IMG/VR virus record: IMGVR_UViG_3300018083_000035
Location: 1 to 54,722 of that record
DNA from: a virus
Strand: one strand, 5' to 3'
Length of the DNA: 54,722 bases
How positions within the stretch are numbered: position 1 is the first letter of the stretch; every line of letters begins with the position of its first letter. Below, piece by piece: positions 1,322 to 54,722 of the stretch. The notes under the pieces are model-generated. The model was not told the origin of the DNA. It saw only the letters and a list, made by a program, of their open reading frames with translations, and did no database searches. A program made the translations under genes and the position numbers.

Positions 1322-1322
1322 C

Positions 1323-2258: not shown

Positions 2259-2890
2259 TGCTGCCAGCAACCATGCCATTGTTGATTGCAGACTTGTTCC
2301 CGCGGGTGAGATCCATCACCACAACGGACAGCCCGCCAAAAACGGCGCATGTCATCAACATACCGGGCGTCATCAATGCTGGCGACCTATTGATATGCGT
2401 TGCGGCTACCGCTGGTCTGGTATCCTTGTCGGCTGGTTGGACAGGGTTTGACACCATATCCGGCAGTTACCGGGTGGCTTCCGCCACTGGTGCAGACGCG
2501 CTGACTATTACCTTGTCCGGTTCGTACTACCTGATGGCGGCAGTTTATCTCATAACGGGTTATGTCGGTACGCCGCAGGGGACGAGCGTTGCTACGTCAG
2601 CAGCGACGACGCACGACCCGCCGCCGCTTTCGCCATCGTGGGGCCTGAAGAACACGTTGTGGATTGTGCAGGCCACCAGCGGTGTGATTGTTGCCGGCGG
2701 CTCTGGGTTCAACAGCTTCCCGCCCAACTACACCAACGCTGTCCATATCGCCCCACCCGGCACGGTTGGCTATGCGCTTTGGACCGCCCGGCGCAAGTTG
2801 CGGGCTGCGACCGAAGACCCAGGCCCACTTACCTCGTCCGAAGCCGTGAGTGCCCGCGTTCGCACCATTGCTGTGCAGGGAGCTGGATAA
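2258..2890 (+). CDS. putative virion appendage protein, unrecognised family (210 aa)
   Basis: Start overlaps the previous stop (TAATG at 2256-2260), and its own TAA overlaps the next ATG. The product is beta-rich and Ser/Thr/Gly-rich. The pattern AGDLLICVAATAG, then GWTGFD, a long Thr/Ser strand region and a closing WTARRKL is what small jelly-roll virion proteins look like, but I cannot name a family. It has no counterpart in the right-hand copy of the module, where the LamG gene runs straight into the next fibre gene. Its position inside a fibre block is the main evidence for a structural, host-recognition role. Confidence 0.5.
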   Translation: MLPATMPLLIADLFPRVRSITTTDSPPKTAHVINIPGVINAGDLLICVAATAGLVSLSAGWTGFDTISGSYRVASATGADALTITLSGSYYLMAAVYLITGYVGTPQGTSVATSAATTHDPPPLSPSWGLKNTLWIVQATSGVIVAGGSGFNSFPPNYTNAVHIAPPGTVGYALWTARRKLRAATEDPGPLTSSEAVSARVRTIAVQGAG

Positions 2891-4197
2891 TGACATCGCA
2901 CTATCGCCACCGCCGCGACAACAACGCCGCCGCCCCGTTCGCTTCTCCGCTGGAGAAGGGCGAGATCGCGGTCAATACCGCCAACCGGCAGCTCGCGGTC
3001 GGCGATCCGGCCGGCCAGCCGCTCGCCCTGCTTGCGGCGCGCTACTTCGACGTGAAGTCGCAATACGCCATCAACGACTTCGTCGTCTACCAGGACAACC
3101 TCTATGTCGCGATCGCCGCCGTTGCGCCAGGCGCCTTCAACGCCGCGCAGTGGCGCATGGCCTCGTTTGCCGTAGGCACCAATTACCTGCTGCTCTCCGG
3201 CGGGACGATGGTCGGGCCGCTGGTCCTGGCCGGCGCCCCAACGGCCGACCTGGAGGCGGCGACCAAGAAATACGTCGACGATTCCCAGCCGCCGCCCCCG
3301 GCTGCCAGCACGATCCCGTCGACTGCCACCGGCGACATCATCGCCACTAACGTGCAAGCCGCGATCGCCGAGCTGGACACCGAGAAGGTCGCCAAGGCCG
3401 GCTCGACCATGACCGGACACCTTAGCCTGCCGGCCGGCCCGACTTCGGCCCAGGCGGTGCGCCGGGACTACGTCGACGCAGCTGACACCACCAATGCCAC
3501 CAACATCACCAATGTCAGCAATGCCAAGGTGAACAAGGCCGGCGATACCATGACCGGCACCTTGTACGTCAGCGGCGATGTTTCCGCCTACCGCAACGCC
3601 AACAGTGGCGTATTGTACCTCGGCAGCAATAACGTCCATTACCTGCACTTCGACGGTGCCACCTACGTCCTGCCGAGCGGCGGCATGTCGGTGGGCGGCC
3701 CTATCAGTGCAGGTGCCGGTAATTTCTCCGGCCTGCTCACTGCCGGCGGCGGGTCCAACTTTCCCAGCAACGTCAACCACACGCTCTACAACAACGGCGT
3801 CTATTTTGCCTCGGCGACACCATCCAGTGTCATGGTGCAGGGGCCGCCGTACCCGACCATTGCATTCCACTGCCAAGGCTACTTCGGCGCCAACTTCGGC
3901 ATGAATACCGACGGCAACTTCTATATGGGCGGCTGGTCGCACGGCGAAGGCGTGGCCTACAAGTTCTGGACGACACGCGACTTCAGCGCCAATCCGGGCA
4001 ATCCGCTGGTCAACGCGCGGTGGGTGTACCTCGGCGACGTGGACTGCGGGTTCAATGGCCCTCTGCAAGAGCCGTGGGGTGGGGCCGGTATCACTGGGAT
4101 AAGTGGCCCAAGTTCGTATAATGCTTTCACCGCCCGCTTTCGTCAGTTTCAGATTCAGGTCGCTGACGGCACTTGGGTTGCCACTGGATACGCATGA
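2890..4197 (+). CDS. tail fibre protein with YRHRR docking N-terminus (435 aa)
   Basis: The N-terminus MTSHYRHRRD...LEKGEIAVNTANRQLAVGD is shared with the proteins at 46413-48152 and 50964-52274, suggesting a common virion-docking domain. It continues with a carbohydrate-binding-like stretch (YFDVKSQYAINDFVVYQDNLYVA), two shaft repeats (GGTMVGPL...ATKKYVDD and GSTMTGHL...VRRDYVD) and a C-terminal domain of about 150 residues (GPPYPTIAFHCQGYFGAN...). That last domain is almost identical to the end of the 50964 protein. Start ATG overlaps the previous stop (TAATG). Likely a host-receptor-binding fibre. Confidence 0.8.
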   Translation: MTSHYRHRRDNNAAAPFASPLEKGEIAVNTANRQLAVGDPAGQPLALLAARYFDVKSQYAINDFVVYQDNLYVAIAAVAPGAFNAAQWRMASFAVGTNYLLLSGGTMVGPLVLAGAPTADLEAATKKYVDDSQPPPPAASTIPSTATGDIIATNVQAAIAELDTEKVAKAGSTMTGHLSLPAGPTSAQAVRRDYVDAADTTNATNITNVSNAKVNKAGDTMTGTLYVSGDVSAYRNANSGVLYLGSNNVHYLHFDGATYVLPSGGMSVGGPISAGAGNFSGLLTAGGGSNFPSNVNHTLYNNGVYFASATPSSVMVQGPPYPTIAFHCQGYFGANFGMNTDGNFYMGGWSHGEGVAYKFWTTRDFSANPGNPLVNARWVYLGDVDCGFNGPLQEPWGGAGITGISGPSSYNAFTARFRQFQIQVADGTWVATGYA

Positions 4198-4613
4198 TGC
4201 GGATCATCCATCACGGTACATGGTCGCCCTACAAGCCAGCCGTGCTGCCGGCCCTGTTTCCGGCCAGTGCATTGTTCTGCCGACGCGATGGCGCGACCGA
4301 TTGGTATGAGTTCCTCAAGCAGAACGTCTTGCTGCCGGATACGGTGAAGCTCGCGGTCGAGGCTGGCGTCGTCAAGGTCGCGACACGTGATGCGACGGCG
4401 ATATGGCCGATCAATCGCCTCGTTCTTGAGGTGATGGACGACGACGACGAGAGCGATCCGCAGCCGCGCTACCAGGGTATGTGCTACGATACTGAAGCAA
4501 ACGGGCTATTGTTGCCGTCGGAGCCGCCAGTGCTGCCGCCGGTCAAGTCGCCGCATGAGCGGCTCGATGAGCTGGAGAAGCGCGTCAAGGCGCTGGAAGC
4601 CAGGAAAAAGTGA
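4194..4613 (+). CDS. conserved hypothetical protein after fibre gene (139 aa)
   Basis: Begins in an ATGATG that overlaps the fibre stop (TGA at 4195-4197); the first ATG gives the usual ATGA overlap. The product MMRIIHHGTWSPY... is mixed alpha/beta with an acidic DDDDES patch near residue 80 and a C-terminal coiled coil rich in Glu, Leu, Lys and Arg (about residues 115-139). By eye it differs from the right-hand copy at 52271-52690 at 8 of 139 positions and has identical length, so it is under selection. Its place directly after a fibre suggests a fibre-assembly or tail role; no family recognised. Confidence 0.7.
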   Translation: MMRIIHHGTWSPYKPAVLPALFPASALFCRRDGATDWYEFLKQNVLLPDTVKLAVEAGVVKVATRDATAIWPINRLVLEVMDDDDESDPQPRYQGMCYDTEANGLLLPSEPPVLPPVKSPHERLDELEKRVKALEARKK

Positions 4614-4822
4614 TCGAGTACACCGGCAAGGCCGCGGCCGAGGTTGCCAAGGGACTGGCAGCTGGTGGGCCGCTGGCGTTGCCGCTGGTGATCATCAACG
4701 TGGTCTGCCTCGGCGTGGTGTTCTTCACGCTGTACCATATCTCCAACGCATCCGAGCGACGTGACAGCTTGATTGCCGAGCTGGCCAAGTCTTGCCAGCC
4801 GATCGTCGAAAGGATGAAATGA
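4610..4822 (+). CDS. small single-TM protein, holin-like candidate (70 aa)
   Basis: GTG start at 4610 overlaps the previous stop and is preceded by AGGAAAAA; the right-hand homologue at 52687 uses ATG at the same place, which confirms the start. A short polar N-terminus with an amphipathic segment (TGKAAAEVAKGLAAGG) is followed by one strong membrane segment at about residues 24-43 (LALPLVIINVVCLGVVFFTLY) and a charged cytoplasmic-type tail (SERRDSLIAELAKSCQ). Size and topology fit a small phage holin or another lysis-cassette membrane protein; a regulator of lysis or an inner-membrane spanin-like subunit remains possible. Confidence 0.55.
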   Translation: MIEYTGKAAAEVAKGLAAGGPLALPLVIINVVCLGVVFFTLYHISNASERRDSLIAELAKSCQPIVERMK

Positions 4823-4851
4823 GTCTGCAACGATAAGAAGGATGCGATGTT

Positions 4852-5190
4852 ATGAAGAAGGCCAAGCGAAAACGCCCGGTTGTTGCGCGCAAGCGCAAGG
4901 TGACTGCGCGGAGGAAGCCGGCCAGCCCCCGTAAAAAGAGGAAGTCCAAGATGTCCAAGAAGTCGAATGACGACGACGACGAGCCTCGCACTGCAACAAA
5001 ACACCCGGACCAGCACCGCCGGACCGCGGGCGATCAACCGCAGGATCCGGCCACGCCCGACCAGACTTCCGACCCGGTCGAGCTGGCTAAGAAAGAGCAT
5101 TCCGGCATCGACCCAATGGGCCAGCCGCCCGACAACCCGCAGGCGCCCAATCCGCCAGTGGAAGAAGACCCGGAGCGCAAGAACAAGTGA
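4852..5190 (+). CDS. highly basic N-terminus, Pro-rich acidic C-terminus protein (112 aa)
   Basis: The first 38 residues are mostly Lys/Arg with Pro and Ala (KKAKRKRPVVARKRK...), resembling histone H1-type or nucleic-acid-binding tails. An Asp run (DDDDE) and a hydrophilic Pro/Asp/Gln-rich tail ending in PERKNK follow. Preceded by AAGAAGGA. The right-hand homologue (52930-53193) keeps the basic start and the MGQPPD motif but its tail is about 25 residues shorter, so the tail tolerates length change. No enzymatic domain is visible; DNA binding or packing is a guess from composition. Confidence 0.65.
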   Translation: MKKAKRKRPVVARKRKVTARRKPASPRKKRKSKMSKKSNDDDDEPRTATKHPDQHRRTAGDQPQDPATPDQTSDPVELAKKEHSGIDPMGQPPDNPQAPNPPVEEDPERKNK

Positions 5191-5474
5191 CCGAGTGGCC
5201 TAAAAACCCACAACTGCGCGTTGGCGGGGAGCTGGAGCCAACCGGCCCCGTCAACGTGTTCAATGAGAAGGTGGCGACCGCCGAAGCCATCAATCGCGCG
5301 ATCGACACCAAGACCGCCTACGACACCACCCATCCGCCACCCGCTCCGATAACGATCGATCCCGTGCCGGACGGCACGCCGATCAGCGCCGGCGGTCCCA
5401 TTACAATCGACGAAACCAAGTATATGATCGAGCCGCAATTCGTCGGCCACAAGGTGATACCGCGCAGACGCTGA
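5187..5474 (+). CDS. conserved small phage protein (95 aa)
   Basis: GTG start overlapping the previous stop (GTGA at 5187-5190); the right-hand homologue at 53190 has the same GTG context, which supports it. Conserved core: TEWPKNPQLR.GGELEPTGPVNVFNEK, then AIDTKTAYD and a Pro-rich stretch with GTPISAGGP. The C-terminus diverges between copies (IEPQFVGHKVIPRRR here, IDLAATRRRR there) but is basic in both. The PISAGGPI-type motif echoes the Pro-rich proteins at 16.9-18.2 kb, which hints at a shared virion or scaffold context. No known fold recognised. Confidence 0.65.
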   Translation: MTEWPKNPQLRVGGELEPTGPVNVFNEKVATAEAINRAIDTKTAYDTTHPPPAPITIDPVPDGTPISAGGPITIDETKYMIEPQFVGHKVIPRRR

Positions 5475-5494
5475 TCTAACGCCGGGGGGCCACC

Positions 5495-5698
5495 ATGATC
5501 TCAACTTTGATAAGCATCGTGCTGCTGCTGGTGGTGCTCGGTGTCATCCTGTGGGGGCTACAACAGCTTCTGCCTATGGTGCCTATGGACCCGAGATTCA
5601 GAACTGTGATCTCGGTGTTGATCACCATCATTGTCGTCTTGATCATTGTCTGGATCATTGCCGGTCTGCTCGGCGTGGTGACGCCACTGAGGTTGTGA
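5495..5698 (+). CDS. two-TM small membrane protein, candidate holin (67 aa)
   Basis: Strong ribosome site (CCGGGGGG) seven bases before ATG. Two hydrophobic helices at about residues 3-25 and 37-62 are separated by a short Met/Pro loop (LLPMVPMDPRFR). This resembles the small Thivi_2564-type membrane proteins and class II-like holins with two transmembrane segments. It sits just before the lipoprotein spanin candidate. There is no counterpart in the right-hand copy of the cassette, where a different two-TM gene (53679-53852) lies one gene later. Confidence 0.6.
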   Translation: MISTLISIVLLLVVLGVILWGLQQLLPMVPMDPRFRTVISVLITIIVVLIIVWIIAGLLGVVTPLRL

Positions 5699-5898
5699 TG
5701 ACCGCGCACGATTACTTTCTAGTTGCCACTGTTTTTGGCGCGGCGTTACTTGCCATCCTACTATCCAGCTGCATGGTAGTTACCGAACGGCCGCCGTTTT
5801 ATACCAGATACGAAATCGATGCGATCAATGCCGAAACCGCCTGCCGACAACTGGCGCGAACAATTATCCAAATGGAACGCTGCACAGTCAGGAGATAA
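5698..5898 (+). CDS. small lipoprotein, outer-membrane spanin (Rz1-like) candidate (66 aa)
   Basis: ATG at 5698 overlaps the previous stop (TGATG). The N-terminus MTAHDYFLVATVFGAALLAILLSSC is a short lipoprotein signal with a lipobox ending LLSS-C (LLSG-C in the homologue at 53470). After the Cys comes a short periplasmic part with TERPPFYTRYEIDAI and two more conserved Cys residues. Size, lipobox and location fit an o-spanin that fuses outer and inner membranes at lysis. A partner i-spanin is not obvious, so a unimolecular arrangement or a different small lipoprotein role is possible. Confidence 0.6.
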   Translation: MTAHDYFLVATVFGAALLAILLSSCMVVTERPPFYTRYEIDAINAETACRQLARTIIQMERCTVRR

Positions 5899-5899
5899 A

Positions 5900-6064
5900 A
5901 TGGCTAAGCCCGACCAGGATATATTCCCGCCGGACCCGGCTTTGATCCGGCCGCTGGTGCCGCGGATCGAGATCGCGCTGACCGTGCCGGATGGCGTTGA
6001 CCTGCAGATCACCGTCAACGGCGTCGGCGTGCTGATGCAGGATGACGACGAAGACGCGGCCTAG
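5900..6064 (+). CDS. small acidic protein (54 aa), copy-specific
   Basis: AGGAG six bases before ATG at 5900 marks a real start. The product MAKPDQDIFPPDPALIR...RIEIALTVPDGVDLQITVNGVGVLMQDDDEDAA has two predicted beta strands and an acidic end. It is absent from the right-hand cassette, where the two-TM gene 53679-53852 takes its place between the lipoprotein gene and the conserved AT element. Function unknown. Confidence 0.55.
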   Translation: MAKPDQDIFPPDPALIRPLVPRIEIALTVPDGVDLQITVNGVGVLMQDDDEDAA

Positions 6065-6090
6065 CCCAAAAATTTTTTCGGATTTTCAAC
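6065..6090 (+). promoter_or_regulatory. conserved AT intergenic element, copy 1
   Basis: CCAAAAATTTTTTC followed by TTTTCAAC lies between the stop at 6064 and the ATG at 6104. Nearly the same block occurs at 53854-53880 in the equivalent place and at 27215-27242 in another context. The A5T6 core is self-complementary and could be a bent-DNA or bidirectional terminator-like site. TTAGGGGAA, just downstream, is the ribosome site of the next gene. Confidence 0.5.
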
Positions 6091-6103
6091 TTAGGGGAAC
6101 CCA

Positions 6104-6328
6104 ATGCCGTCCAAGATCGGTAAGACCGTGAGCATCAAGGCGCCGCCGGTTGCTAAACCGCCGCCGCCATCAAAGACGCAAGACAACTACACCCACCACA
6201 CTTCTCCGGTGAAAGGTCCGCAGCCGACCCCGGTTGAGCCAAGTACGATTTCATCCACGCCGAAGGCGAAGATCCGCACGCTGCCGGATGTGCCGGCGGC
6301 AAAGTACAAACATGTCGACGAAGGCTGA
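6104..6328 (+). CDS. Pro/Lys-rich small protein before terminase (74 aa)
   Basis: Starts MPSKIGKTV after a TTAGGGGAA ribosome site and overlaps the terminase start by 17 bases. Pro/Ser/Lys-rich and largely disordered, with conserved blocks KIGKTV, DNYTHHTSP, KGPQPTPVEP and PKAKIRTLPDVP shared with 53895-54122. Position directly upstream of the large terminase is where a small terminase often lies, but no helix-turn-helix or oligomerisation core is visible, so I do not call it TerS. Confidence 0.65.
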   Translation: MPSKIGKTVSIKAPPVAKPPPPSKTQDNYTHHTSPVKGPQPTPVEPSTISSTPKAKIRTLPDVPAAKYKHVDEG

Positions 6329-7889
6329 ACAGGACGTCCGCCTCAAGCTTTTGAAGCGCAAGCGGGCGGTCCTCACCGCCCGCGACGATCTGATAGCGTT
6401 TACACAGTTGATGATGCCCGACCCTAACTTCGATGACGAAGTTGGGCAGTCGCTCTATAAGCCACAGCCGTTCCACCGAATGATCGGCCGCGCGCTTGAA
6501 GATGTCGAGCGCGGCGACTACCGGCGGTTGATGATCAATGTCGGACCCAGATTTGGCAAAACCACGCTGGCTAGTGCCATGTTTCCAGCATGGTACGTCG
6601 GTCGGCACCCTGACCGATCTATTATCGTTGCGACCTACAATGAGCATTACTCCTGGGATTTGGGACGGCGAGTTCGTGATATTATGGAAACACCTGAATA
6701 TAAACAGGTGTTCCCAGAAGTAGAGATCAAGGTCGGCGCCAATGCAGTCAACCGGGTCCAAACGACCAGAGATGGCGTGGTCTTCAGTGTGGGACGCGGC
6801 TCCTCGATCACCGGACGTGGTGGCCACTGCATCTTATTGGACGACCCTATTAAGGATCGAACTGAAGCTGACTCAGTCATCGTTAGAGAGAAGCTGTGGC
6901 AATGGTACAATCAAGTCCTCAGAACTCGCCTCATGGATTCGACTGGCACTATCGTCATCGTCCAAACCAGGTGGACCGAAGACGATCTCGTTGGCAGGCT
7001 TATCGACCCGCTTAATCCATACTTCAATGTTGAAGAAGCCAAAGCCTGGCGCAAGATTGATCTGCCGGCATTAGCCGAAGACAACGACATTCTCGGCCGC
7101 GCGCCCGGCGAGGCGCTATGGCCGGAGCGGTTCACCCAGCAATATCTGGAGGAGATCCGTGCCACCGATCCGCGTGGATTTGCTGCGCTGTATCAGGGCC
7201 GTCCAGGACCTAAAGACGGCGCATTCTTCAAGGATAGCGACCTGGTCCCTTACAATAAAATGGATGACATACCGGCGTTTCATACCTTGCGATTCTATGG
7301 GGCATCGGACCACGCGGTGTCGGTCGCCAAATCCGCCGACAAGACCTGTCTGATGATCGTCGGCGTCGATGAGAAGGACAACATCTGGGTGATGCCGGAC
7401 ATGGTCTGGAAGCGGCTGGATTCTCATGAGGCGGTCGAAAGCATGATCGCGCTGATGAAGAAGTATAAGCCGCAGTTTTGGTGGGCCGAGGGCGGCGCCA
7501 TCACCAAGAGCATCGGTCCATTTCTCAAACGGCGTATGCGCGAGAAGCAGGTGTTCTGCGCGATCGATCCGATCAACCCCGCGGCCGACAAGCAGCAGCG
7601 CGCCCAGGCGATCCAGGCTAGAACCTCTATGAAGATGGTGCGCTTTCCCAGCTTCACCCGCTGGTGGTCGGAGGGCCAGGATCAAATACTTAAATTCCCG
7701 CATGGCTCAAACGATGACCTGGTCGACACTCTGAGCCTTATTGGGCTAGGACTATCGAAGATGCACGGGCGAACCCGCGGCAGGAAGATCGAGCCAGAAA
7801 CAACGGCCGGCTCCTTCCGCGAGATGTTTGCAGACACGCGCCGGCGTGAGGGTCACGATCTTCGGGCGAGGAGCCTGCAAGGATGGTAG
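6312..7889 (+). CDS. terL: terminase large subunit (525 aa)
   Basis: Packaging motor ATPase/nuclease. The start is ATG 6312 (MSTKAEQDVRLK), not the upstream in-frame codons: it overlaps the previous gene by 17 bases and is mirrored at 54106. Walker A is GPRFGKTT near residue 80; Walker B is CILLDDP near 180, followed by RTEAD; coupling and nuclease regions follow, with FYGASDHAV near 335 probably being an RNase H-like nuclease motif. Length is typical. The stretch 6825-6920 is identical base for base to 54619-54714 in the truncated second copy. Confidence 0.93.
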   Translation: MSTKAEQDVRLKLLKRKRAVLTARDDLIAFTQLMMPDPNFDDEVGQSLYKPQPFHRMIGRALEDVERGDYRRLMINVGPRFGKTTLASAMFPAWYVGRHPDRSIIVATYNEHYSWDLGRRVRDIMETPEYKQVFPEVEIKVGANAVNRVQTTRDGVVFSVGRGSSITGRGGHCILLDDPIKDRTEADSVIVREKLWQWYNQVLRTRLMDSTGTIVIVQTRWTEDDLVGRLIDPLNPYFNVEEAKAWRKIDLPALAEDNDILGRAPGEALWPERFTQQYLEEIRATDPRGFAALYQGRPGPKDGAFFKDSDLVPYNKMDDIPAFHTLRFYGASDHAVSVAKSADKTCLMIVGVDEKDNIWVMPDMVWKRLDSHEAVESMIALMKKYKPQFWWAEGGAITKSIGPFLKRRMREKQVFCAIDPINPAADKQQRAQAIQARTSMKMVRFPSFTRWWSEGQDQILKFPHGSNDDLVDTLSLIGLGLSKMHGRTRGRKIEPETTAGSFREMFADTRRREGHDLRARSLQGW

Positions 7890-37155: not shown

Positions 37156-37185
37156 GGCCGGCAGGGGGCGAAATCCCTGCCGGCC
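37156..37185 (+). promoter_or_regulatory. perfect 11-bp stem hairpin between nuclease and prim-pol
   Basis: Arms 37156-37166 and 37175-37185 pair perfectly around an eight-base loop (GGCGAAAT). No T-run follows. Similar in kind to the hairpin at 28558-28588. The following gene starts at 37231 with AAGGAG upstream. Confidence 0.5.
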
Positions 37186-40765: not shown

Positions 40766-40787
40766 CGCACGCGGGCGCCCGCGTGCG
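40766..40787. repeat. 22-bp perfect palindrome at left edge of repeat array
   Basis: Centre at GGGCGCCC; arms 40766-40776 and 40777-40787. It directly abuts the first module of the array. With the 28-bp palindrome at 41063-41090 it brackets the array. Confidence 0.8.
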
Positions 40788-41062
40788 GTCCAGCACGCGG
40801 CCGCGGTCCAGCACGCGGGCGAGCGGCCGCACACGGTCCAGCACGCGGGCGAGCGGCCGCACACGGTCCAGCACGCGGGCGAGCGGCCGCACACGGTCCA
40901 GCACGTGGCCGCGGTCCAGCACGCGCACACGGTCCAGCACGCGGGCGAGCGGCCGCACACGGTCCAGCACGCGGCCGCGGTCCAGCACGCGCACACGGTC
41001 CAGCACGCGGGCGAGCGGCCGCACACGGTCCAGCACGCGGCCGCGGTCCAGCACGCGCAAAA
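40787..41062. repeat. interspersed GC-rich repeat array, 12 modules of 18 or 30 bp
   Basis: Twelve copies of the core GGTCCAGCACGCG (one with GTG) define three module types: A (18 bp, core then GCCGC), B (30 bp, core then GGCGAGCGGCCGCACAC) and C (18 bp, core then CACAC). Order: A B B B A' C B A C B A C'. The block C-B-A (66 bp) is repeated at 40913-40978 and 40979-41044. All modules are multiples of six, so all six frames are free of stops across it. Not CRISPR: there are no variable spacers. Iteron-like protein-binding array or unstable recombination site are the main options. Confidence 0.9.
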
Positions 41063-41090
41063 GCGCCCGCGGGACTAGTCCCGCGGGCGC
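41063..41090 (-). terminator. 28-bp perfect palindrome, terminator for the 41106 gene
   Basis: Perfect palindrome centred on ACTAGT. On the minus strand it follows the stop at 41106 by 15 bases and is followed by TTTT, so it fits a rho-independent terminator; as DNA it could also extrude as a cruciform next to the repeat array. Confidence 0.6.
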
Positions 41091-41105: not shown

Positions 41106-41405
41106 TCACCATACGCCTAGGCGTTCCAATGCCTCGCGGTCACGTTGCGCCATAATGCGATATTCCCGCGGCATGGCGTCGAAGTGCGCCAATACCTCAT
41201 CACGGATTAGCCTTTGCTCTGCGGTCATAAACAAGCATGCGCCAATGCTGGCCAGATAGGGATTGCACGATAGCATGGCGCCTTGCCACGCGGCCGCGGC
41301 TAGCGTTTCACTACGCGGGCAACGGGCGAGCAATTGCCCGCGGTTTTTTCCTCGCGTGGCATAGGCGCCGGTTAACGCAAGCTTAGCTTGTTCTGATAAT
41401 GCCAT
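41106..41405 (-). CDS. small hypothetical protein (99 aa)
   Basis: Helical: MALSEQAKLALTGAYATRGKNRGQLLARCPRSETLAAAAWQGAML..., with AEQRLIRDEVLAHFDAMPREYRIMAQRDREALERLGVW as a second helical part. No family recognised. The leader contains the large palindromic element at 41431-41478, so the 5' UTR of its message would be strongly structured. A short coupled ATG (41112) overlaps the stop and opens a frame across the repeat array. Confidence 0.55.
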   Translation of the reverse strand: MALSEQAKLALTGAYATRGKNRGQLLARCPRSETLAAAAWQGAMLSCNPYLASIGACLFMTAEQRLIRDEVLAHFDAMPREYRIMAQRDREALERLGVW

Positions 41406-41430
41406 TTTGTTTTAGCCTCTGTTGTCGGCG

Positions 41431-41478
41431 TGATTGCCGCTCATGCCGCGGGCGCGCCCGCGGCATGCACTGCAATCA
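41431..41478. repeat. cruciform element 1 (apical palindrome 41442-41467)
   Basis: Outer arms TGATTGC (41431-41437) and GCAATCA (41472-41478), a CGCT/CACT internal loop, then a 26-bp perfect palindrome centred on GCGCGC. The left flank TCTGTTGTCGGCG and right flank are identical to element 2 at 42450-42499, but most of the central palindrome differs. On the minus strand it lies in the leader of the 41106-41405 gene. Confidence 0.85.
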
Positions 41479-41579
41479 AAGCGGCCGGTATGCTCGCGTT
41501 AGGCAAAAGCTAAAGCAAAAGCGGCCGATTTTGATAAAGCGGATTCCGCCTATTCGGCGTGTGCTGATATTGAGCATGA

Positions 41580-42416
41580 TCATGCCGCTAATTGATATTC
41601 AACGGGCGCCGCGATCGGCGGGACAACAAAGCCCAACGCGACTCCCTCGCGTTTCGCCTTGTTGCCTTTTGGCGACAAGCCAATAACGACGCCATGCGGA
41701 TCAAGGTGCCGCAAATCGTGCTGGTCGCCATCGATAACATGGAATCCATTCCACATCAGCGGCATGGCGCCCGCGAATATGACCGCAACATTATGACCGC
41801 GGGCGAGCAAGTCTAAAGCTTGCGCTTCATTGTTTTCCGAGCGGCTAAATGTCAGCGAATAGTTAGCGGGCAATTGGCGATTAAACCTAAGATGATTCTT
41901 TGTGTAATCGACATATTGCACCATGGGGAAAGCGGAAAAGATTGTGTGCAATCCTGGCGTGATTTGTTCGCCTGATATCTGTGACAGATACGCGGCGAGC
42001 TCGGGCGATACAAAGATACGGATTCCCTCATATGCAATATCCGTTGCGCCATTAGGGCGGACCGCTAGCGCCATACGCTTGCGTTTTGCTTTGCGGATAG
42101 AACGCGCAACATGGACTAGGAACTCAACGCAATAGGCGTTGCGTTCTGTCATGAAATAGCGTGCTTTGCGTTCGCGGGATTGCCGCACCTTATTGGTTCC
42201 GGTCGCGTGTGATACCATGGCCGCTTGTCCGCTTTCGCGACCAAGGCAAAGCAATATGCACGCGGGCGATGCATGCGAGCACAGATTAGTGACGCCATCG
42301 CCTGATTTGTGCGGCGCCATATAGTTGATAGCGTTTAGATAGTTGAATTTGGCCGCTTTGATTGCCTTTGGGCTATCAATAGAAAACATAGCCTTGAATT
42401 GAAGCTTAACGCGCAT
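41580..42416 (-). CDS. conserved phage protein with N-terminal Cys cluster, GP88-like (278 aa)
   Basis: ATG 42416 (MRVKLQFKAMFSID) has AGGA 12 bases upstream; ATG 42434 would add six residues. NLCSHASPACILLCLG near residue 45 gives a Cys/His cluster, then NKVRQSRERKARYFMTERNAYCVEFL, VRPNGATDIAYEG, TIFSAFPMVQYVDYTKN and FAGAMPLMWNGFHVIDGDQHDLRHLDPHGVVIGLSPKG. This order resembles the GP88/DUF7227-type proteins of phages, whose fold is Cys-rich and TIM-like and whose function is unknown. Structured elements lie on both sides. Confidence 0.65.
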   Translation of the reverse strand: MRVKLQFKAMFSIDSPKAIKAAKFNYLNAINYMAPHKSGDGVTNLCSHASPACILLCLGRESGQAAMVSHATGTNKVRQSRERKARYFMTERNAYCVEFLVHVARSIRKAKRKRMALAVRPNGATDIAYEGIRIFVSPELAAYLSQISGEQITPGLHTIFSAFPMVQYVDYTKNHLRFNRQLPANYSLTFSRSENNEAQALDLLARGHNVAVIFAGAMPLMWNGFHVIDGDQHDLRHLDPHGVVIGLSPKGNKAKREGVALGFVVPPIAAPVEYQLAA

Positions 42417-42449
42417 TGTTCTGATTCCTGTCATGTTCTGTTGTCGGCG

Positions 42450-42499
42450 TGATTGCCGCTCATGCGGCGCCGAGCTCGGCGCCGCATGCACTGCAATCA
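42450..42499. repeat. cruciform element 2 (apical palindrome 42461-42488)
   Basis: Outer arms TGATTGC (42450-42456) and GCAATCA (42493-42499) and the CGCT/CACT loop are the same as in element 1. The centre is a different 28-bp perfect palindrome centred on GAGCTC. On the minus strand it lies between the gene at 42497-42727 and the GP88-like gene. Confidence 0.85.
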
Positions 42500-42727
42500 A
42501 TAGCCGTATAGGGCCGGGTCACAGTGCATCACGCGGACGCGGCGCCCGTCGAAGTTTCCCGAAAGGATATCGTCCGCGGTATCGGCCGCGCCGAGATTCT
42601 CGATTCGGTCGCATGTGACAACGTCCGCGGGATTATCGCGGATTAGGCGCCGAAACGTCCGCGCCGCGTGATTAAAATCCGGCGTGATAACGTCCGCTTC
42701 GATTGTGTCGCAATAGATGTGGTACAT
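42497..42727 (-). CDS. small hypothetical protein (76 aa)
   Basis: AGGAAAGAG lies ten bases before ATG 42727. MYHIYCDTIEADVITPDFNHAARTFRRLIRDNPADVVTCDRIENLGAADTADDILSGNFDGRRVRVMHCDPALYGY has a strand-helix-strand pattern with three Cys. First gene of the minus-strand unit that ends at 41106, divergent from the HGG protein gene. Function unknown; composition (many GCGG/CGCG codons) is like the other genes in this region. Confidence 0.6.
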   Translation of the reverse strand: MYHIYCDTIEADVITPDFNHAARTFRRLIRDNPADVVTCDRIENLGAADTADDILSGNFDGRRVRVMHCDPALYGY

Positions 42728-42771
42728 GGGCGAGCTCTTTCCTGTTATGGTTCAACGGCGCTTATATTGTC

Positions 42772-42785
42772 CCTATCGGGATAGG
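42772..42785. promoter_or_regulatory. inverted repeat between divergent genes (operator candidate)
   Basis: CCTATC-GG-GATAGG. The right arm overlaps AGGAG, the ribosome site of the plus-strand gene at 42797, so a bound protein or a stem would block its translation. CAACGG occurs on both sides of it. Confidence 0.4.
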
Positions 42786-42796
42786 AGTCAACGGTT

Positions 42797-48922: not shown

Positions 48923-50961
48923 GCAAGCGCGGCCTCGGCTTCAGTATTCCCAGCGACGACACGCTCTACAACGACGCCTATGTGACGTGGCTCATGCACT
49001 TCGACGGGCCGCAAGGCTCGGCATACGCTATTGATTATTCACGAAAGCAGAACGGGCCGGTTGTCATATCAAACGGGATTATAAGTGCCGGCGGCAAGTT
49101 TGGCCCCACGTCTTTGTCGCTTAATACCCAGAACGGTTTGTGTTATTCGCCGGTCAACCTGGATAATTCATTTAACCTGTCCGACAACGACTTCACGATC
49201 GATTGGTGGGAATACTGCCACGACAACACGGTCGCTCGTCCTTCATTCGAGTGGGACACGCTGGGTGTAGTGTATGTTCCCATGCTAGTCGGCTGGGGAA
49301 CAGACGCACTGTATTTTTACGCCTCCAACGACCAAGCGACTTGGAATTTGGCCGCTTCACTGCCGATGGGAAATCGCCAGGTCGGTGCATGGTGCCATCG
49401 CGCGATCGTGCGCAAAGGTGGCACGTTCTACACGTTCCAGAACGGCATATTGCAAGGCACCCAGGCGGTTGGCGGCAACGGCGTCTTCAATATCTGCACC
49501 TACGGTCCGTGCCTTGGTGCTTGGACTAATCCCGGCGGCTACGCCTACATGTACGGCCATATCGATGAGTTCCGCGTCAGCAACGGCATTGCCAGGTGGA
49601 CCGCTAACTTCACGCCACCGAATGCACAGTACGGACCAGAACCAGACCTGAACACAGTGCTGCTGATGCACTTCGATAACCTGGCGGACTCGTCGCAGTA
49701 CAAGCGCGGCCTCGCCACAGCTTCCGGCGGCGCGGCCATTTCATCGATTACCCCGACGCCATTCGGCGGCGCTTTTTCGCTGTACCTGAACCGGGCGGCG
49801 CAATGCTACGTCAGCTACCCGGATCACGCACACTGGGTCATAGGCACCCAGGATTTCACTGCCGACGCCTGGGTCTATATTAGCGACTATCCCGCTGCCG
49901 GCGACAACTACGCGGTCATCACACAGATGGATGGTGCCGGCGATTACAACAACCGTCATCTGATGTTGTACATCAATTCGGATGGCGCGGTTGTATCGGA
50001 TGCGAACAACGCCGGCGTGCAAGTGTATTTCACCGGATCGCCTGGAGCTGCCGTTCCGTTCAATACTTGGACGCACGTTGCAGTCGTCCGCAATGGCACT
50101 GCGGTTCAGATCTACGTCAACGGCACTTTGCGGTCTGGTTTCGCGATACCTGCCGGAACATCGTTTAAAGACTACACCGGGCCGCTGCGGATAGGCGGCA
50201 TGGGCGATGCCGGCGAGAACCGTTTCAAGGGCTACATAGACGAGGTGCGCTTCGTTATCGGCAAGGCACTGTGGACCGCCGAGTTCACGCCACCAGCCGA
50301 GCTGCTCCCCCTCAATCCCGACAAGACTGTGCTGCTGCTGCACTTCGACGGCAATTTCAACGACAGTTCGCGAGAGCGGCAGGTAGTACAGAAGGCCACC
50401 GCGGTTATCGATATACAACAGAAGAAGTTTGGCACCGCGGCTGCACTCTTCAGCGGCGGCCAGCTCTGCTACGTTCCGACAGCTCCAGCCAGTCTGAACT
50501 TCGGCACTAGTGATTTCACCATCGACTGCTGGCTCTACAATACCGGCTCCCCCGGTGTTAACCGCGGACTGTTTGGCCGATGTAATCCAAGCCTGACAGA
50601 ACTATCGCACGGCGCGCTAATGGGCACCGACAACCGTATGCAGTGCTGGTTTGGTAAGACCGGCAGCGATTGGGTTACCCAGGGCGTGGTTGGCGTTCAC
50701 GATGTCACACCCAATGCGTGGCACCACTGGGCTGTAACCAGACAGGCTGGCGTTTTCAGATCGTGGCTCGATGGTGTGCTAGACGCGGGACCGAACGACT
50801 ACGGCATGTTTCCGATCTACGTCAGCACCTGGTCGTTCGTGATCGGCGCGATCGGCAACAACACCAACTACTGGACCGGCTACATCGATGAGTTCCGTGT
50901 TACCAAGGGCAAGGCGTTGTGGACTGCTAACTTCACCCCGCCAACTCAACCGGGCAATTGA
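48919..50961 (+). CDS. three-LamG-domain adhesion protein (680 aa)
   Basis: Three tandem LamG/concanavalin A-like domains, about residues 20-235, 240-460 and 465-680. Each opens with a WLMHFDG/VLLMHFDN/VLLLHFDG strand, has DFTIDWW/DFTADAW/DFTIDCW in the middle and ends with IDEFRV or IDEVRF plus WTANFTPP-like text. Glycan-binding, probably a receptor-recognition protein. The left-edge fragment (1-1321) is homologous to its second and third domains. ATGA overlap at 48919. Confidence 0.85.
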   Translation: MSKRGLGFSIPSDDTLYNDAYVTWLMHFDGPQGSAYAIDYSRKQNGPVVISNGIISAGGKFGPTSLSLNTQNGLCYSPVNLDNSFNLSDNDFTIDWWEYCHDNTVARPSFEWDTLGVVYVPMLVGWGTDALYFYASNDQATWNLAASLPMGNRQVGAWCHRAIVRKGGTFYTFQNGILQGTQAVGGNGVFNICTYGPCLGAWTNPGGYAYMYGHIDEFRVSNGIARWTANFTPPNAQYGPEPDLNTVLLMHFDNLADSSQYKRGLATASGGAAISSITPTPFGGAFSLYLNRAAQCYVSYPDHAHWVIGTQDFTADAWVYISDYPAAGDNYAVITQMDGAGDYNNRHLMLYINSDGAVVSDANNAGVQVYFTGSPGAAVPFNTWTHVAVVRNGTAVQIYVNGTLRSGFAIPAGTSFKDYTGPLRIGGMGDAGENRFKGYIDEVRFVIGKALWTAEFTPPAELLPLNPDKTVLLLHFDGNFNDSSRERQVVQKATAVIDIQQKKFGTAAALFSGGQLCYVPTAPASLNFGTSDFTIDCWLYNTGSPGVNRGLFGRCNPSLTELSHGALMGTDNRMQCWFGKTGSDWVTQGVVGVHDVTPNAWHHWAVTRQAGVFRSWLDGVLDAGPNDYGMFPIYVSTWSFVIGAIGNNTNYWTGYIDEFRVTKGKALWTANFTPPTQPGN

Positions 50962-50963
50962 CC

Positions 50964-52274
50964 ATGACCTCGCACTATCGCCATCGCCGCGACGGCAGCC
51001 CTGCCGCTGTAGCCCCGACCCTGGAAAAGGGCGAGGTCTACGTCAATACCGCCAACCGGCAGATGGCGGTCGGCAACGTCGCCGACGGCCAGCCGCTGTT
51101 CCTGATTGCGGTGCGCTACTTCGATACGCGGTCGCAATACGCCGCCGGCGACTTCGTCGCCAACGCCGGCAAGCTCTATGTCGCGCAAGCCAACATCTCG
51201 CCTGGCGCCTTCAATCCGGCGCAGTGGTTTGCCGCCACCCGAGACCCAGGCGATTCCACCGATCTGAGCAGCTACCTGCCCAAGGCCGGCGGCACCATGA
51301 CCGGGCCGCTGGTCCTGGCCGGCGCTCCATCCACCGATCTAGAGGCGGCCACCCGGAAGTACGTTGACGACTCCACCCCGCCGCCGCCGAACGCGGCCTT
51401 GATTCCGTCGACCGCCACCGGCGCGATCGCCGCCACCAACGTGCAGGACGCGATCGCCGAGCTGGAAGCCGAGAAGGTCGCCAAGGCCGGCGGGACCATG
51501 ACCGGACATCTGTCGCTGCCGACCGTGCCAGCTGCGGCCAATGCCGTGCGCAAGGACTACGTCGACGCCGGCGATAGCACCAACGCCACTGCCCTTGCCG
51601 GCAAGGTCAGCAAGACCGGCGATACCATGACCGGCGACTTGAAGGTCGCCGCCGATACTTACAGCTACCGCGGCGCTAACGTCGGCTACGTCTTTCTCGG
51701 CAGCAACCAGGCCCACTACGTCGGCTTCGACGGCACCAACTACATTATGCCGAGCGGCGGTCTGGGGGTCGGCGGCGGCATTACTGCCGGCGCCGGCACG
51801 TTCAGCGGCTTGCTCGCCGCCAACGGCGGATCTACCCATCCCAGCAATGTTAATCACACCTTCTACAACAATGGCGTCTACTTCGCCTCGGCGACACCCT
51901 CCAGCGTCATGGTGCAAGGCCCGCCCTATCCGACTATCGCCTTCCACTGCCAGGGCTACTTCGGCGCCAACTTCGGCATGAATACCGACGGCAACTTCTA
52001 CATGGGCGGCTGGTCGCACGGCGAAGGCGTGGCCTACAGGTTCTGGACGACACGCGACTTCAGCAACAACCCCGGCAACCCGCTGATCAACGCGCGGTGG
52101 GTATACCTCGGCGACGTGGATTGCGGGTTCAATGGTCCTCTGCAAGAGCCGTGGGGCGGGGCCGGTATCACCGGGATAAGCGGCCCAAGCTCGTACAATG
52201 CTTTCACCGCCCGCTTTCGCCAGTTTCAGATTCAGGTCGCTGATGGCACTTGGGTTGCCACTGGATACGCATGA
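50964..52274 (+). CDS. tail fibre protein, homologue of 2890-4197 (436 aa)
   Basis: ATG 50964 (MTSHYRHRRDGS); TTG 50958 would add two residues. Docking N-terminus as in the other YRHRR fibres, shaft repeats GGTMTGPL...ATRKYVDD, GGTMTGHL...VRKDYVD and GDTMTGDL, and a C-terminal tip nearly identical to 2890-4197 (GPPYPTIAFHCQGYFG onward). The middle differs, so tip and base are more conserved than the shaft. Stop overlaps the next ATG. Confidence 0.8.
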   Translation: MTSHYRHRRDGSPAAVAPTLEKGEVYVNTANRQMAVGNVADGQPLFLIAVRYFDTRSQYAAGDFVANAGKLYVAQANISPGAFNPAQWFAATRDPGDSTDLSSYLPKAGGTMTGPLVLAGAPSTDLEAATRKYVDDSTPPPPNAALIPSTATGAIAATNVQDAIAELEAEKVAKAGGTMTGHLSLPTVPAAANAVRKDYVDAGDSTNATALAGKVSKTGDTMTGDLKVAADTYSYRGANVGYVFLGSNQAHYVGFDGTNYIMPSGGLGVGGGITAGAGTFSGLLAANGGSTHPSNVNHTFYNNGVYFASATPSSVMVQGPPYPTIAFHCQGYFGANFGMNTDGNFYMGGWSHGEGVAYRFWTTRDFSNNPGNPLINARWVYLGDVDCGFNGPLQEPWGGAGITGISGPSSYNAFTARFRQFQIQVADGTWVATGYA

Positions 52275-52690
52275 TGCGGATCATCCACCACGGTACATGG
52301 TCGCCCTACAGGCCAGACGCGCTGCCCGCCCTGTTTCCGGCCAGTGCATTGTTCTGCCGACGCGATGACGGGACCGATTGGTATGAGTTCCTCAAGCAGA
52401 ACGTCTTGCTGCCGGATACGGTGAAGCTCGCGGTCGAGGGCGGCGCCGTCAAGGTCGCGACGCGCGACGCGACGGCGATATGGCCGATCAATCGCCTTGT
52501 GCTTGAGGTGATGGACGACGATGACGAGAGCGATCCGCAGCCGCGCTACCAGGGTATGTGCTACGACACTGAAGCAAACGGTCTGTTGTTGCCGTCGGAG
52601 CCGCCGACGCTGCCGCCGGTCAAGTCGCCGCATGAGCGGCTCGATGAGCTGGAGAAGCGCGTCAAGGCGCTGGAAGCCAGGAAGAAATGA
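52271..52690 (+). CDS. conserved hypothetical protein, copy 2 of 4194-4613 (139 aa)
   Basis: Same length as copy 1, with 8 of 139 residues different by eye (for example KPAV to RPDA near the start, GAT to DGT near 35). Starts in ATGATG overlapping the fibre stop. Coiled-coil end as in copy 1. Close conservation next to variable fibre genes suggests a constant partner such as a fibre chaperone or tail component. Confidence 0.7.
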   Translation: MMRIIHHGTWSPYRPDALPALFPASALFCRRDDGTDWYEFLKQNVLLPDTVKLAVEGGAVKVATRDATAIWPINRLVLEVMDDDDESDPQPRYQGMCYDTEANGLLLPSEPPTLPPVKSPHERLDELEKRVKALEARKK

Positions 52691-52899
52691 TCGAGTACAC
52701 CGGCAAGGTGGCGGGCGAGATCGCCAAGGGGTTGGCGGCCGCGGGGCCGCTCGCGCTGCCGCTGGTGATCATCAATATCGTCTGCCTCGGCGTGGTGTTC
52801 TTCACGCTCTACCACATCTCGTCGGCGTCGGAGCGCCGTGACGCCTTGATTGCCGAGCTGGCTAAGACTTGCCAGCCGATCGCCGGTGCGGTGAAATAA
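52687..52899 (+). CDS. small single-TM protein, holin-like, copy 2 (70 aa)
   Basis: ATG overlapping the previous stop (ATGA), where copy 1 uses GTG. One membrane helix at about residues 24-43 and a charged end with SERRDALIAELAKTCQ. Conserved Cys and SERRD motif in both copies. Same functional caveats as copy 1. Confidence 0.55.
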   Translation: MIEYTGKVAGEIAKGLAAAGPLALPLVIINIVCLGVVFFTLYHISSASERRDALIAELAKTCQPIAGAVK

Positions 52900-52929
52900 G
52901 GCGGCAACCTATAGGGAGGATGCTTTGTT

Positions 52930-53193
52930 ATGAGGAAGGCCAAGCGAAAGCGCCCGGTTGTTGCGCCACGGCGCAAGGTGACTGCGCGGAAGAAGCCGGC
53001 CACACCCCGAAAGAAGAGGAAAGCCAAGATGTCGACCAAGAAGTCCGACGACGAGGAAGAACCCCGCCACACGCCGCGACCGCAACCACCGAATCCGGCC
53101 GATCACAAGGCCGACCCAAAGACGGACCCGATGGGCCAGCCGCCCGACAGTCCGCCCAACCCTAACCTGCCGCCGGAGCCACAGACCAAGTGA
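52930..53193 (+). CDS. basic N-terminus, Pro-rich protein, copy 2 (87 aa)
   Basis: MRKAKRKRPVVAPRRKVTARKKPATPRKKRKAKM, then DDEEEPRH and a Pro/Asp/Lys tail with TDPMGQPPD. Preceded by AGGGAGGA. The Lys/Arg block is conserved, the tail is about 25 residues shorter than in 4852-5190. Confidence 0.65.
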   Translation: MRKAKRKRPVVAPRRKVTARKKPATPRKKRKAKMSTKKSDDEEEPRHTPRPQPPNPADHKADPKTDPMGQPPDSPPNPNLPPEPQTK

Positions 53194-53462
53194 CTGAATG
53201 GCCTAAAAATCCACAACTGCGCATTGGCGGGGAGCTGGAACCAACCGGCCCCGTCAATGTGTTCAATGAGAAGCTGGCGGTCGCTGACGCGGTCAATCGT
53301 GCGATCGACACCAAGACCGCTTATGACGCAACGCACCCGCCGCCGGCGCCAATAACGCCAGAAGTAGTGCCGCCCGGCACGCCGATCAGCGCCGGCGGTC
53401 CCGTTACAATCGACCAATCCAAGTATATGATCGACCTGGCGGCGACCCGACGCCGCCGTTGA
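53190..53462 (+). CDS. conserved small phage protein, copy 2 (90 aa)
   Basis: GTG start overlapping the previous stop, as in copy 1. TEWPKNPQLRIGGELEPTGPVNVFNEKLAVADAVNRAIDTKTAYD is conserved; the end (DLAATRRRR) differs. Directly followed by the lipoprotein gene because the two-TM gene of the left cassette (5495-5698) is absent here. Confidence 0.65.
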   Translation: MTEWPKNPQLRIGGELEPTGPVNVFNEKLAVADAVNRAIDTKTAYDATHPPPAPITPEVVPPGTPISAGGPVTIDQSKYMIDLAATRRRR

Positions 53463-53469
53463 GGCTGTG

Positions 53470-53676
53470 ATGACAGCACACGACTACTTTCTAGTCGCCA
53501 CGGTCTTTGGCGCGGCGCTACTCGCTATCTTATTGTCCGGCTGCATTACGACGGTAATCACCGAGCGGCCGCCGTTTTATACGCGCTACGAGATCGACGC
53601 GATCCAAGCCGAGAACAACTGCCGGGCGCTGGCTCGCAACATGCTACAGATGGAACGCTGCTCGATCAGGAGGTAG
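53470..53676 (+). CDS. small lipoprotein, o-spanin-like, copy 2 (68 aa)
   Basis: GAGG five bases before ATG 53470. MTAHDYFLVATVFGAALLAILLSGC has a canonical lipobox (LSG-C). The periplasmic part keeps TERPPFYTRYEIDAI and two more Cys. Three extra residues after the lipobox compared with copy 1 (ITTVI). Same reading as copy 1: outer-membrane spanin candidate. Confidence 0.6.
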   Translation: MTAHDYFLVATVFGAALLAILLSGCITTVITERPPFYTRYEIDAIQAENNCRALARNMLQMERCSIRR

Positions 53677-53678
53677 CC

Positions 53679-53852
53679 ATGTCTATCGGTCTGTTATTCT
53701 GGATTCTCATGGTGCTGTGGTTCTTCTCTTGGCTAGGTAATACCTACGCGCCAGGTCAATATCCGTGGGCCGTCCACGCCAACAGTTTGCTGTTCTTCGT
53801 CTTGTTGTTTTTGCTCGGCTGGCACGCTTTCGGGTTTGTCATACGCGCATAG
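53679..53852 (+). CDS. two-TM small membrane protein, holin candidate (57 aa)
   Basis: Excellent ribosome site (AGGAGGT) before ATG 53679. MSIGLLFWILMVLWFFSWLGNTYAPGQYPWAVHANSLLFFVLLFLLGWHAFGFVIRA has two hydrophobic helices joined by a short polar turn. It occupies the slot of the soluble 54-residue protein (5900-6064) of the left cassette. It resembles small phage holins in size and topology but shares no visible sequence with 5495-5698. Confidence 0.6.
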   Translation: MSIGLLFWILMVLWFFSWLGNTYAPGQYPWAVHANSLLFFVLLFLLGWHAFGFVIRA

Positions 53853-53853
53853 C

Positions 53854-53880
53854 CGCCAAAAATTTTTTCCGGTTTTCAAC
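53854..53880 (+). promoter_or_regulatory. conserved AT intergenic element, copy 2
   Basis: CCAAAAATTTTTTCCGGTTTTCAAC directly after the stop at 53852 and before the ATG at 53895, the same place as copy 1 although the gene upstream of it is different. That favours a role for the downstream packaging genes or as a recombination junction. Confidence 0.5.
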
Positions 53881-53894
53881 TTAGGGAACTGCAC

Positions 53895-54122
53895 ATGGCT
53901 AGCAAGATCGGTAAGACCGTGAACATCAAGCCGCCGCCGAGCGCCGGCCCGCCGCCGAACACGTCCAAGACCATGGACACCTACACCCACCACACCTCGC
54001 CGATCAAAGGTCCGCAGCCGACGCCGGTCGAGCCGAACACGATGACTTCGTCGCCGAAGGCAAAGATCAGGACGCTGCCGGACGTACCGAAGGCGAAGTA
54101 CAAGCATGACGACGAAGGCTGA
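53895..54122 (+). CDS. Pro/Lys-rich protein before terminase, copy 2 (75 aa)
   Basis: MASKIGKTVNIKPPPSAGPPPNTSKTMDTYTHHTSPIKGPQPTPVEP, then PKAKIRTLPDVPKAKYKHDDEG. Conserved blocks as in 6104-6328 with a different Pro-rich middle. Overlaps the terminase start by 17 bases, as in copy 1. Confidence 0.65.
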   Translation: MASKIGKTVNIKPPPSAGPPPNTSKTMDTYTHHTSPIKGPQPTPVEPNTMTSSPKAKIRTLPDVPKAKYKHDDEG

Positions 54123-54722
54123 AGAGAACGTCCGCCTCAAGCTTCTGAAGCGCAAGCGGGCGATCCTCACGGCCCGCGACGATCTGATAGCGTTTACAGA
54201 ACTGATGATGCCCGACCCCAACTACGACGACGATGTCGGGCAGTCGCTCTATAAACCACAGCCGTTTCACCGCATGATCGGTAGCGCGCTTGAAGAGGTC
54301 GAGCGCGGCGATTACCGGAGGTTGATGATCAATGTTGGGCCTCGGTTTGGTAAGACCACGCTTGCCAGCGCGATGTTTCCTGCTTGGTATGTCGGTAGGC
54401 ATCCTGACCGCTCTATTATTGTTGCTACTTACAACGAGCATTATTCATGGGATCTCGGACGACGTGTCCGAGACATCATGGAAACCCCCGAGTACAAGCA
54501 AGTCTTCCCCGAGGTAGAGATCAAAGTCGGCGCCAATGCAGTCAACCGCGTGCAAACGACCCGTGATGGAGTGGTCTTCAGTGTGGGACGCGGCTCCTCG
54601 ATCACCGGACGTGGTGGTCACTGCATCTTATTGGACGACCCTATTAAGGATCGAACTGAAGCTGACTCAGTCATCGTTAGAGAGAAGCTGTGGCAATGGT
54701 ACAATCAAGTCCTCCGAACTCG
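54106..54722 (+). CDS. terL: terminase large subunit, copy 2, truncated by window end
   Basis: The first 205 residues are present; Walker A GPRFGKTT and Walker B ILLDDP are intact. By eye nine residues differ from copy 1, all within the first 66; residues after that are identical although many codons differ synonymously until about 54560. The last 104 bases match 6825-6928 with one mismatch, 96 of them exactly. Not a broken gene as far as visible; it is cut by the edge. Confidence 0.9.
   Translation, partial: MTTKAEENVRLKLLKRKRAILTARDDLIAFTELMMPDPNYDDDVGQSLYKPQPFHRMIGSALEEVERGDYRRLMINVGPRFGKTTLASAMFPAWYVGRHPDRSIIVATYNEHYSWDLGRRVRDIMETPEYKQVFPEVEIKVGANAVNRVQTTRDGVVFSVGRGSSITGRGGHCILLDDPIKDRTEADSVIVREKLWQWYNQVLRT

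Follow-up and report, generated by a model that had tools for sequence, protein, structure and literature searches.

What do two hairpins with the same flanks and different centers do in front of two genes of one virus? The window, which is the whole 54,722-base virus record analyzed here, contains two such elements, e1 and e2 (Table 1). Both carry the 29-nt left stretch TCTGTTGTCGGCG + TGATTGCCGCTCATGC, in both the outer arms, TGATTGC/GCAATCA, are 7 bp long and the internal loops read CGCT/CACT, and their perfect apical palindromes differ (26 bp in e1, CATGCCGCGGGCGCGCCCGCGGCATG; 28 bp in e2, CATGCGGCGCCGAGCTCGGCGCCGCATG). These features were found as described in the initial annotation of the sequence, as were the minus-strand genes located 3' of both elements. 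A flank search across the window, with a 20-nt flank and up to 3 mismatches, returned e1 and e2 only (expected number, 0.02). Furthermore, the fold energies of e1 and e2 were far below those of shuffled sequences (z, -4.5 and -5.8). A chance-level origin is excluded; both elements are real, far beyond chance.

Because the genes on both sides are minus-strand genes, the sense reading of the elements was taken from the minus strand: TGATTGC-AGTG-P2-AGCG-GCAATCA-CGCCGACAACAGA...ATG. The order of parts is a stop codon contained in the outer helix P1 (TGATTGC·GCAATCA), a 4x4 internal loop, a variable helix P2, GCCG, a Shine-Dalgarno sequence, and a start codon. In this reading, two features emerge that had been missed in the initial annotation: each element starts on the codon that terminates the gene before it, and its 3' "flank", GCCG followed by the Shine-Dalgarno region, is conserved and belongs to the element.

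Table 1. Features of the two junctions, given as positions in the window
Feature	Positions	Strand	Details
99-aa gene 3' of e1	41106..41405	-	function unassigned; 42 viral relatives
Shine-Dalgarno-like AGAGG 3' of e1	41416..41420	-	start codon ATG 41405-41403
e1 helix P3	41426..41439	-	CGGC 41439-41436 pairs with GCCG 41429-41426
e1 P1+P2 hairpin	41431..41478	-	P1 5' arm 41478-41472; P1 3' arm 41437-41431
e1 internal loops and P2	AGTG 41471-41468; P2 41467-41442; AGCG 41441-41438	-	
Conserved 35-aa small ORF	41476..41583	-	e1 starts on its TGA; homologues found in L001 and L021
GP88-family gene 3' of e2	41580..42416	-	PF17338, E 1e-27; phrog_1617
Shine-Dalgarno-like AGGA ahead of the GP88 gene	42426..42429	-	start ATG 42416-42414
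e2 helix P3	42445..42458	-	CGGC 42458-42455 pairs with GCCG 42448-42445
e2 P1+P2 hairpin	42450..42499	-	P1 5' arm 42499-42493; P1 3' arm 42456-42450
e2 internal loops and P2	42492-42489; P2 42488-42461; 42460-42457	-	
76-aa ORF	42497..42727	-	function unassigned; stop TGA is the start of e2

The virus record encodes a terminase, a portal protein and a major head protein, along with a DNA polymerase, a helicase, an exonuclease, and a primase. Its terminase is closest to that of Microcystis phage Mae-Yong1326-1 (50%), followed by that of Rhizobium phage RHph_N65 (42%). No integrase was detected among the 18 window proteins scanned, and the search for a nuclease or rolling-circle enzyme suggested in the initial annotation revealed none adjoining the elements. 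Several genes are duplicated near the two ends of the record (269-6457 and 49549-54251) and have diverged, the blocks being 72-86% identical. The small ORF preceding e1 begins with an ATG that overlaps the GP88 stop codon (ATGA), and this GP88/small-ORF junction is without the element. Its product is a conserved and likely unannotated protein of 33-35 aa (approximately MFNxxTRRxGGIRFxKIGRxCFSFCxTRxYRPL) that adjoins GP88 genes; in L001, the order of the two genes is swapped.

Other repeats were observed in the surroundings. A further 28-bp perfect palindrome (GCGCCCGCGGGACTAGTCCCGCGGGCGC) is located at 41063-41090, 15 nt past the stop codon of the 99-aa gene, and in the relatives L016 and L018 this place is taken, approximately, by another hairpin (AAGCCCTCG...CGAGGGCTT); the palindrome of the window is possibly the 3'-end hairpin of the operon. 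Between it and an HTH gene (40685-40245), positions 40766-41060 hold GC-rich tandem repeats of 12/18 bp (GGTCCAGCACGCG units); several frames are open in this array, which is probably noncoding. Upstream of the plus-strand gene at 42797, a small hairpin joined to a Shine-Dalgarno sequence is found (GTCCCTATCGGGATAGGAGTC, 42769-42789), and the matching site in L001 is a perfect 14-bp palindrome, GTCCCGATCGGGAC. Finally, between the divergently oriented exonuclease (minus) and primase (plus) genes, there is a conserved hairpin at 37156-37185 (GGCCGGCAGGGGGCGAAATCCCTGCCGGCC), the stem of which is nearly the same in L012, L013, L021, L024, and L035. It is a possible origin or regulatory site.

To collect relatives of e1 and e2, we started from one exact-architecture match in IMG/VR and from the 42 relatives of the gene 3' of e1, and a first alignment of 28 sequences gave the covariance model R1. 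Building such a model from flank matches had been proposed in the initial annotation, and R1 recovered 94 nonredundant copies, spread over more than 60 virus records of IMG/VR; R1 was partly trained on sequences that it later scored, the related phages are not independent of each other, and the collection search patterns included parts of P1 and CGGC. Looser sequence scans, in which neither a palindrome nor a stop codon nor GCCG was required, gave 19, 70, and 41 viral DNA stretches, a few of them false. In the 87 viral records searched, a phage carried up to about 10-12 copies, with about 10 copies in 6 kb in G032, about 10-12 in 8 kb in G056/G057, 6-7 in G073 and G054, and 2 in the window. 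Strong R1 matches were on one strand within each record, sense scores were approximately twice the antisense scores, and the copies were located on the coding strand at gene junctions. By sequence comparison, e1 and e2 are members of a large family of predicted sense-strand RNAs present in many uncultivated phages.

The carriers range from lytic-type, as for the phage of the window, to prophage-like contigs in apparent isolate records. Since several of the copies come from IMG/VR records with isolate-like names and a DUF932 gene resembling Rhizobiales plasmid genes, the hosts may be Alphaproteobacteria, which is a lead rather than a result. Rhizobiales plasmid regions in which a relative of this DUF932 gene occurs were without the element, and none of 385 Alphaproteobacteria genomes had a copy in a search with strict filters and without a positive control. 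An exact-flank scan of GTDB contigs gave five 19-mer matches, all unrelated. Among named isolates, blastn against INPHARED produced chance-level matches only (the one checked, to Xanthomonas phage CP2, falls within a 7-kb ORF), and eight related named phages had no copy above 18 bits.

The collected copies were used to analyze the folding. In the 62 distinct aligned copies, 93.1% of the P1+P2 cells were paired, compared to 72.9% in shuffled alignments, and 15 of 20 pairs covaried. The covariation score of P1+P2 was 0.470 (shuffles, 0.128; slid controls, at most 0.076), a value that was reached in none of 500 shuffles. In strong support of the selection on structure proposed in the initial annotation, we counted 224 double-sided changes versus 75.3 in shuffles. 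The four outer pairs of P1, which had been omitted from the search pattern, were paired in 109 of 128 cases (mean of 2000 shuffles, 84; maximum, 96). Moreover, P1 arms can be rewritten and remain intact, as in AGCTTGC/GCAAGCT, GAATTGC/GCAATTC, GATGTGC/GCATATC, and GATTTGC/GCAAATC, and P1 was present in the predicted minimum-energy fold of 91 of the 94 copies. P2 is 8-14 bp long, with loops of mostly 3-8 nt. The conserved letters are mostly those of P1, the internal loop, and CGGC/GCCG; the sequence of P2 is free.

Which molecule folds can be read from the mismatches. The outer nine pairs of P2 contain 43 G-U and only 3 A-C combinations, and the ratio was 26 to 3 (p=1.5e-5) in a set picked by a sequence pattern with a symmetric pairing filter. 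Because a double-stranded DNA cruciform would lack this asymmetry, the large excess of G-U over A-C indicates single-stranded folding of the coding strand, and the link of the element to a stop codon and a ribosome-binding site makes RNA the simplest identity of this strand. Only 3 of the 94 copies, namely, the two in the window and that in L018, are perfect palindromes, and they are so because their tetraloop happens to be self-complementary. A symmetric DNA palindrome, with both strands equally constrained and a perfect center, was rejected on these three counts. The suggestion in the initial annotation of a cruciform or mobile palindromic element is contradicted by the same counts and by the single orientation of copies tied to stop codons and ribosome-binding sites. 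The existence of copies lacking palindromic centers speaks against its palindrome idea, while its structure idea survives. We conclude that the anatomy of the element is almost certainly that of a structured RNA of the sense strand.

The position of the copies is precise. In 60 of the 94 copies, the element begins exactly with the codon, mostly TGA, that ends the longest upstream frame, and in 18 more this stop codon lies 1-4 nt upstream of P1; where P1 has no initial TGA, the stop codon is usually displaced just 5'. A Shine-Dalgarno-like site and a start codon follow in 88 of the 94 (85 of these with ATG), at a median distance of 25 nt from the end of P1 to the start codon. In the G032 array, the element is present at nine wider junctions (67-119 nt) and at none of the tight ones (1-37 nt); two wide junctions, of 69 and 187 nt by simple gene calling, are also without it. 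That the element spans the junction from the stop codon to the next ribosome-binding site suggests a so far unstudied way of gene control or gene separation in operons. A GP88-type gene ending in SGFVVG-stop and followed by the element precedes six different genes across phages, and therefore the junctions are modular; homologous exchange at the element sequences probably shuffles genes. At two sites (L115 11164-11260 and L126 5398-5500), the sequence behind the element is a sigma-70-like promoter, TTGACC-N17-TAGTAT, with a palindromic spacer and a -35 region that overlaps the P3 strand. Since this promoter lies after the element, the main transcript of the next gene may exclude the element there.

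In addition to P1 and P2, a third helix, P3, can be formed by CGGC and GCCG. Since CGGC overlaps the P1 3' arm, P1 and P3 are mutually exclusive. GCCG, which was absent from every collection pattern, was found at 3-5 nt in 26 of 32 cases and in most of the 94 copies; some copies are without this strand, e.g., L119 3777-3830. Divergent copies keep the P3 pairing with other letters, such as CGGUGC/GCACCG and CGUGC/GCACG, CGG-CAAGC/GCUUG-A-CCG in L115, and CAGGC in L126. With the first 7 nt (the 5' arm of P1) blocked, P3 formed in 76 of 94 predictions. The invariance of P3 in the core alignment argues neither for nor against it: because the core-set pairs hardly vary, covariation support for P3 is limited to a few divergent copies, and the invariance of CGGC is partly ascertainment, since CGGC was in several search patterns. 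In the predicted folds, the Shine-Dalgarno sequence is sequestered in neither the P1 nor the P3 state. Two mutually exclusive helices are conserved, P1 by covariation and P3 by compensation in divergent copies. A P1-P3 pseudoknot was considered and rejected, because the connecting RNA would be too short with P3 loops of 4-6 nt and because L210-type copies share bases between P1 and P3; mutual exclusion is the simpler explanation. In L130, L132, L118, L120, L226, and L227, one more hairpin was seen after GCCG and ahead of the Shine-Dalgarno sequence, e.g., GCCTCC-loop-GGGAGGC and GCGCAATTGTGCGC.

Our main reading, to which we assign a probability of roughly 45%, is that the element is an intercistronic sense-strand RNA that would act on translation or re-initiation by exchange between P1 and P3. 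It would be transcribed between adjacent genes of phage operons. A ribosome with a stop codon in its A site covers approximately 11 nt downstream. P1 plus the internal loop also comprises 11 nt, and thus a terminating ribosome would melt P1. While it terminates on the upstream stop codon, P1 would open, most of P2 would stay, and the freed 3' arm of P1 would allow P3 to form; after release of the ribosome, P1 would re-form. In the absence of a ribosome, the compact P1+P2 hairpin would loop out the approximately 50-60 nt between the stop codon and the ribosome-binding site and bring the two close together. The two states could couple or insulate the expression of neighboring genes. Against this reading stand the Shine-Dalgarno sequence left free in both predicted states, the promoter in L115 and L126 that may keep the element off the next gene's main transcript, and the copies without GCCG. 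The wider proposal of a widespread family of bistable intercistronic RNAs, with the terminating ribosome as sensor and a general role in operon punctuation in a large group of uncultivated phages, is tentative.

The main rival to such a ribosome switch is RNA processing of the RNase III type, which we consider possible and on balance unlikely. The 19-25 bp irregular hairpin would be cut by RNase III or would shield a 3' end made by RNase E, and the operon transcript might be split into single-gene mRNAs by analogy with T7 early mRNA. Indeed, P1, the internal loop, and P2 amount to about two helical turns of an irregular intercistronic hairpin, P2 is paired despite its free sequence, and the element is present at most wide junctions of the arrays. 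A hairpin beginning on the stop codon would also protect an mRNA 3' end, and a mechanism that needs no phage protein fits the spread across unrelated phages. Processing leaves the conserved GCCG strand, P3, and the coincidence of P1 with the stop codon unexplained, and the P2 length of 8-14 bp also counts against it. The conserved bases would be accounted for if a phage or host RNA-binding protein recognized the A-G, CGGC, and GCCG around the internal loop, with P2 as a spacer, in a translational operator or antitermination element. Conservation in P1, the internal loop, and CGGC/GCCG next to a free P2 agrees with such a site, and the many copies per operon would form a regulon. We regard this as less probable than processing: no partner gene was found, the carriers span lytic-type to prophage-like contigs, and a plain binding site need not begin on a stop codon.

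A role at the DNA level, in which genes are shuffled at a cassette boundary or by a mobile palindrome of the cruciform, integron attC-like, or REP-like kind, is improbable. The gene-element-gene arrays speak for it, as does the GP88-type gene, which is followed by the element and then, depending on the phage, by one of at least six genes, but modular exchange is expected at any conserved intercistronic sequence, whatever its function. The G-U excess in P2 argues against a symmetric constraint on double-stranded DNA, and so does the single orientation with the genes. Least probable is an intrinsic terminator or attenuator. A GC-rich, stable hairpin behind a stop codon resembles one, but the sense strand has no U-tract, the 3' flank is A/G-rich, and the next gene, within approximately 25 nt, would be silenced at every junction. 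Moreover, a terminator scan called neither e1 nor e2.

The structured RNA family looks new. No Rfam 15 family was above the gathering threshold in the window, and the best subthreshold matches (E, 2.4-9.8) belonged to unrelated families; literature searches, with most subscription papers outside their coverage, found no description of the element. In dozens of uncultivated phages, the family marks the exact span of a junction between the stop codon and the ribosome-binding site, which makes it a ready tool for locating the limits of operons there. A further question becomes testable with it, namely, whether the RNA switch is reset by a terminating ribosome at every gene boundary or whether processing hairpins punctuate the mRNAs.

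Several known systems are similar in part. The intercistronic RNase III sites of the polycistronic T7 early mRNA are irregular hairpins with an internal loop, as is the element described here. To our knowledge, they have neither stop-codon anchoring nor an alternative P3; both are present here, where cleavage is a candidate role. In leader-peptide attenuators and translational-coupling hairpins, helices are mutually exclusive and the position of the ribosome is the input. The element likewise has two mutually exclusive conserved helices, with a ribosome input suggested by the stop-codon geometry; in contrast to attenuators, one conserved family is repeated at many junctions, and the proposed sensor is the stop codons of ordinary genes. 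Integron attC sites lie behind the stop codons of arrayed genes, have a structure more conserved than their sequence, and carry RYYYAAC/GTTRRRY cores. The position behind stop codons in arrays and the retention of structure over sequence are common to both, but our element is sense-strand and linked to ribosome-binding sites, and by inspection, its consensus ends (TGATTGC / GCAATCATGCCG) are without the attC core sites. REP/BIME-type extragenic repeats are dispersed in bacterial chromosomes in both orientations. In phage records, the element occurs in a single orientation.

Among phage repeats, the 17-bp inverted repeats of Cluster O mycobacteriophages have invariant arms, are inside genes in about one-third of cases, and are not closely linked to starts (PMC4351075). 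Both they and our element are repeated inverted repeats in phage genomes, and in our element the arms vary. The SAS/ESAS of Cluster K mycobacteriophages (PMC3203893) and the similar motifs of Microbacterium phages, which include inverted repeats upstream of starts (PMC7302621), are closest in arrangement: like the element, they are multicopy, mostly same-strand, intergenic inverted repeats directly 5' of ribosome-binding sites. The 13-bp SAS, GGGATAGGAGCCC, is absent at e1 and e2. A look-alike, GGGATAGGAGTC, occurs elsewhere in the window, at 42778-42789 (+), within the hairpin and Shine-Dalgarno stretch at 42769-42789 mentioned above. For SAS/ESAS, mRNA hairpins received little support, and DNA-binding sites were favored (PMC3203893). 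Unlike in ESAS, pairing is strongly supported in the element, the sequences are unrelated, and the element includes a stop codon.
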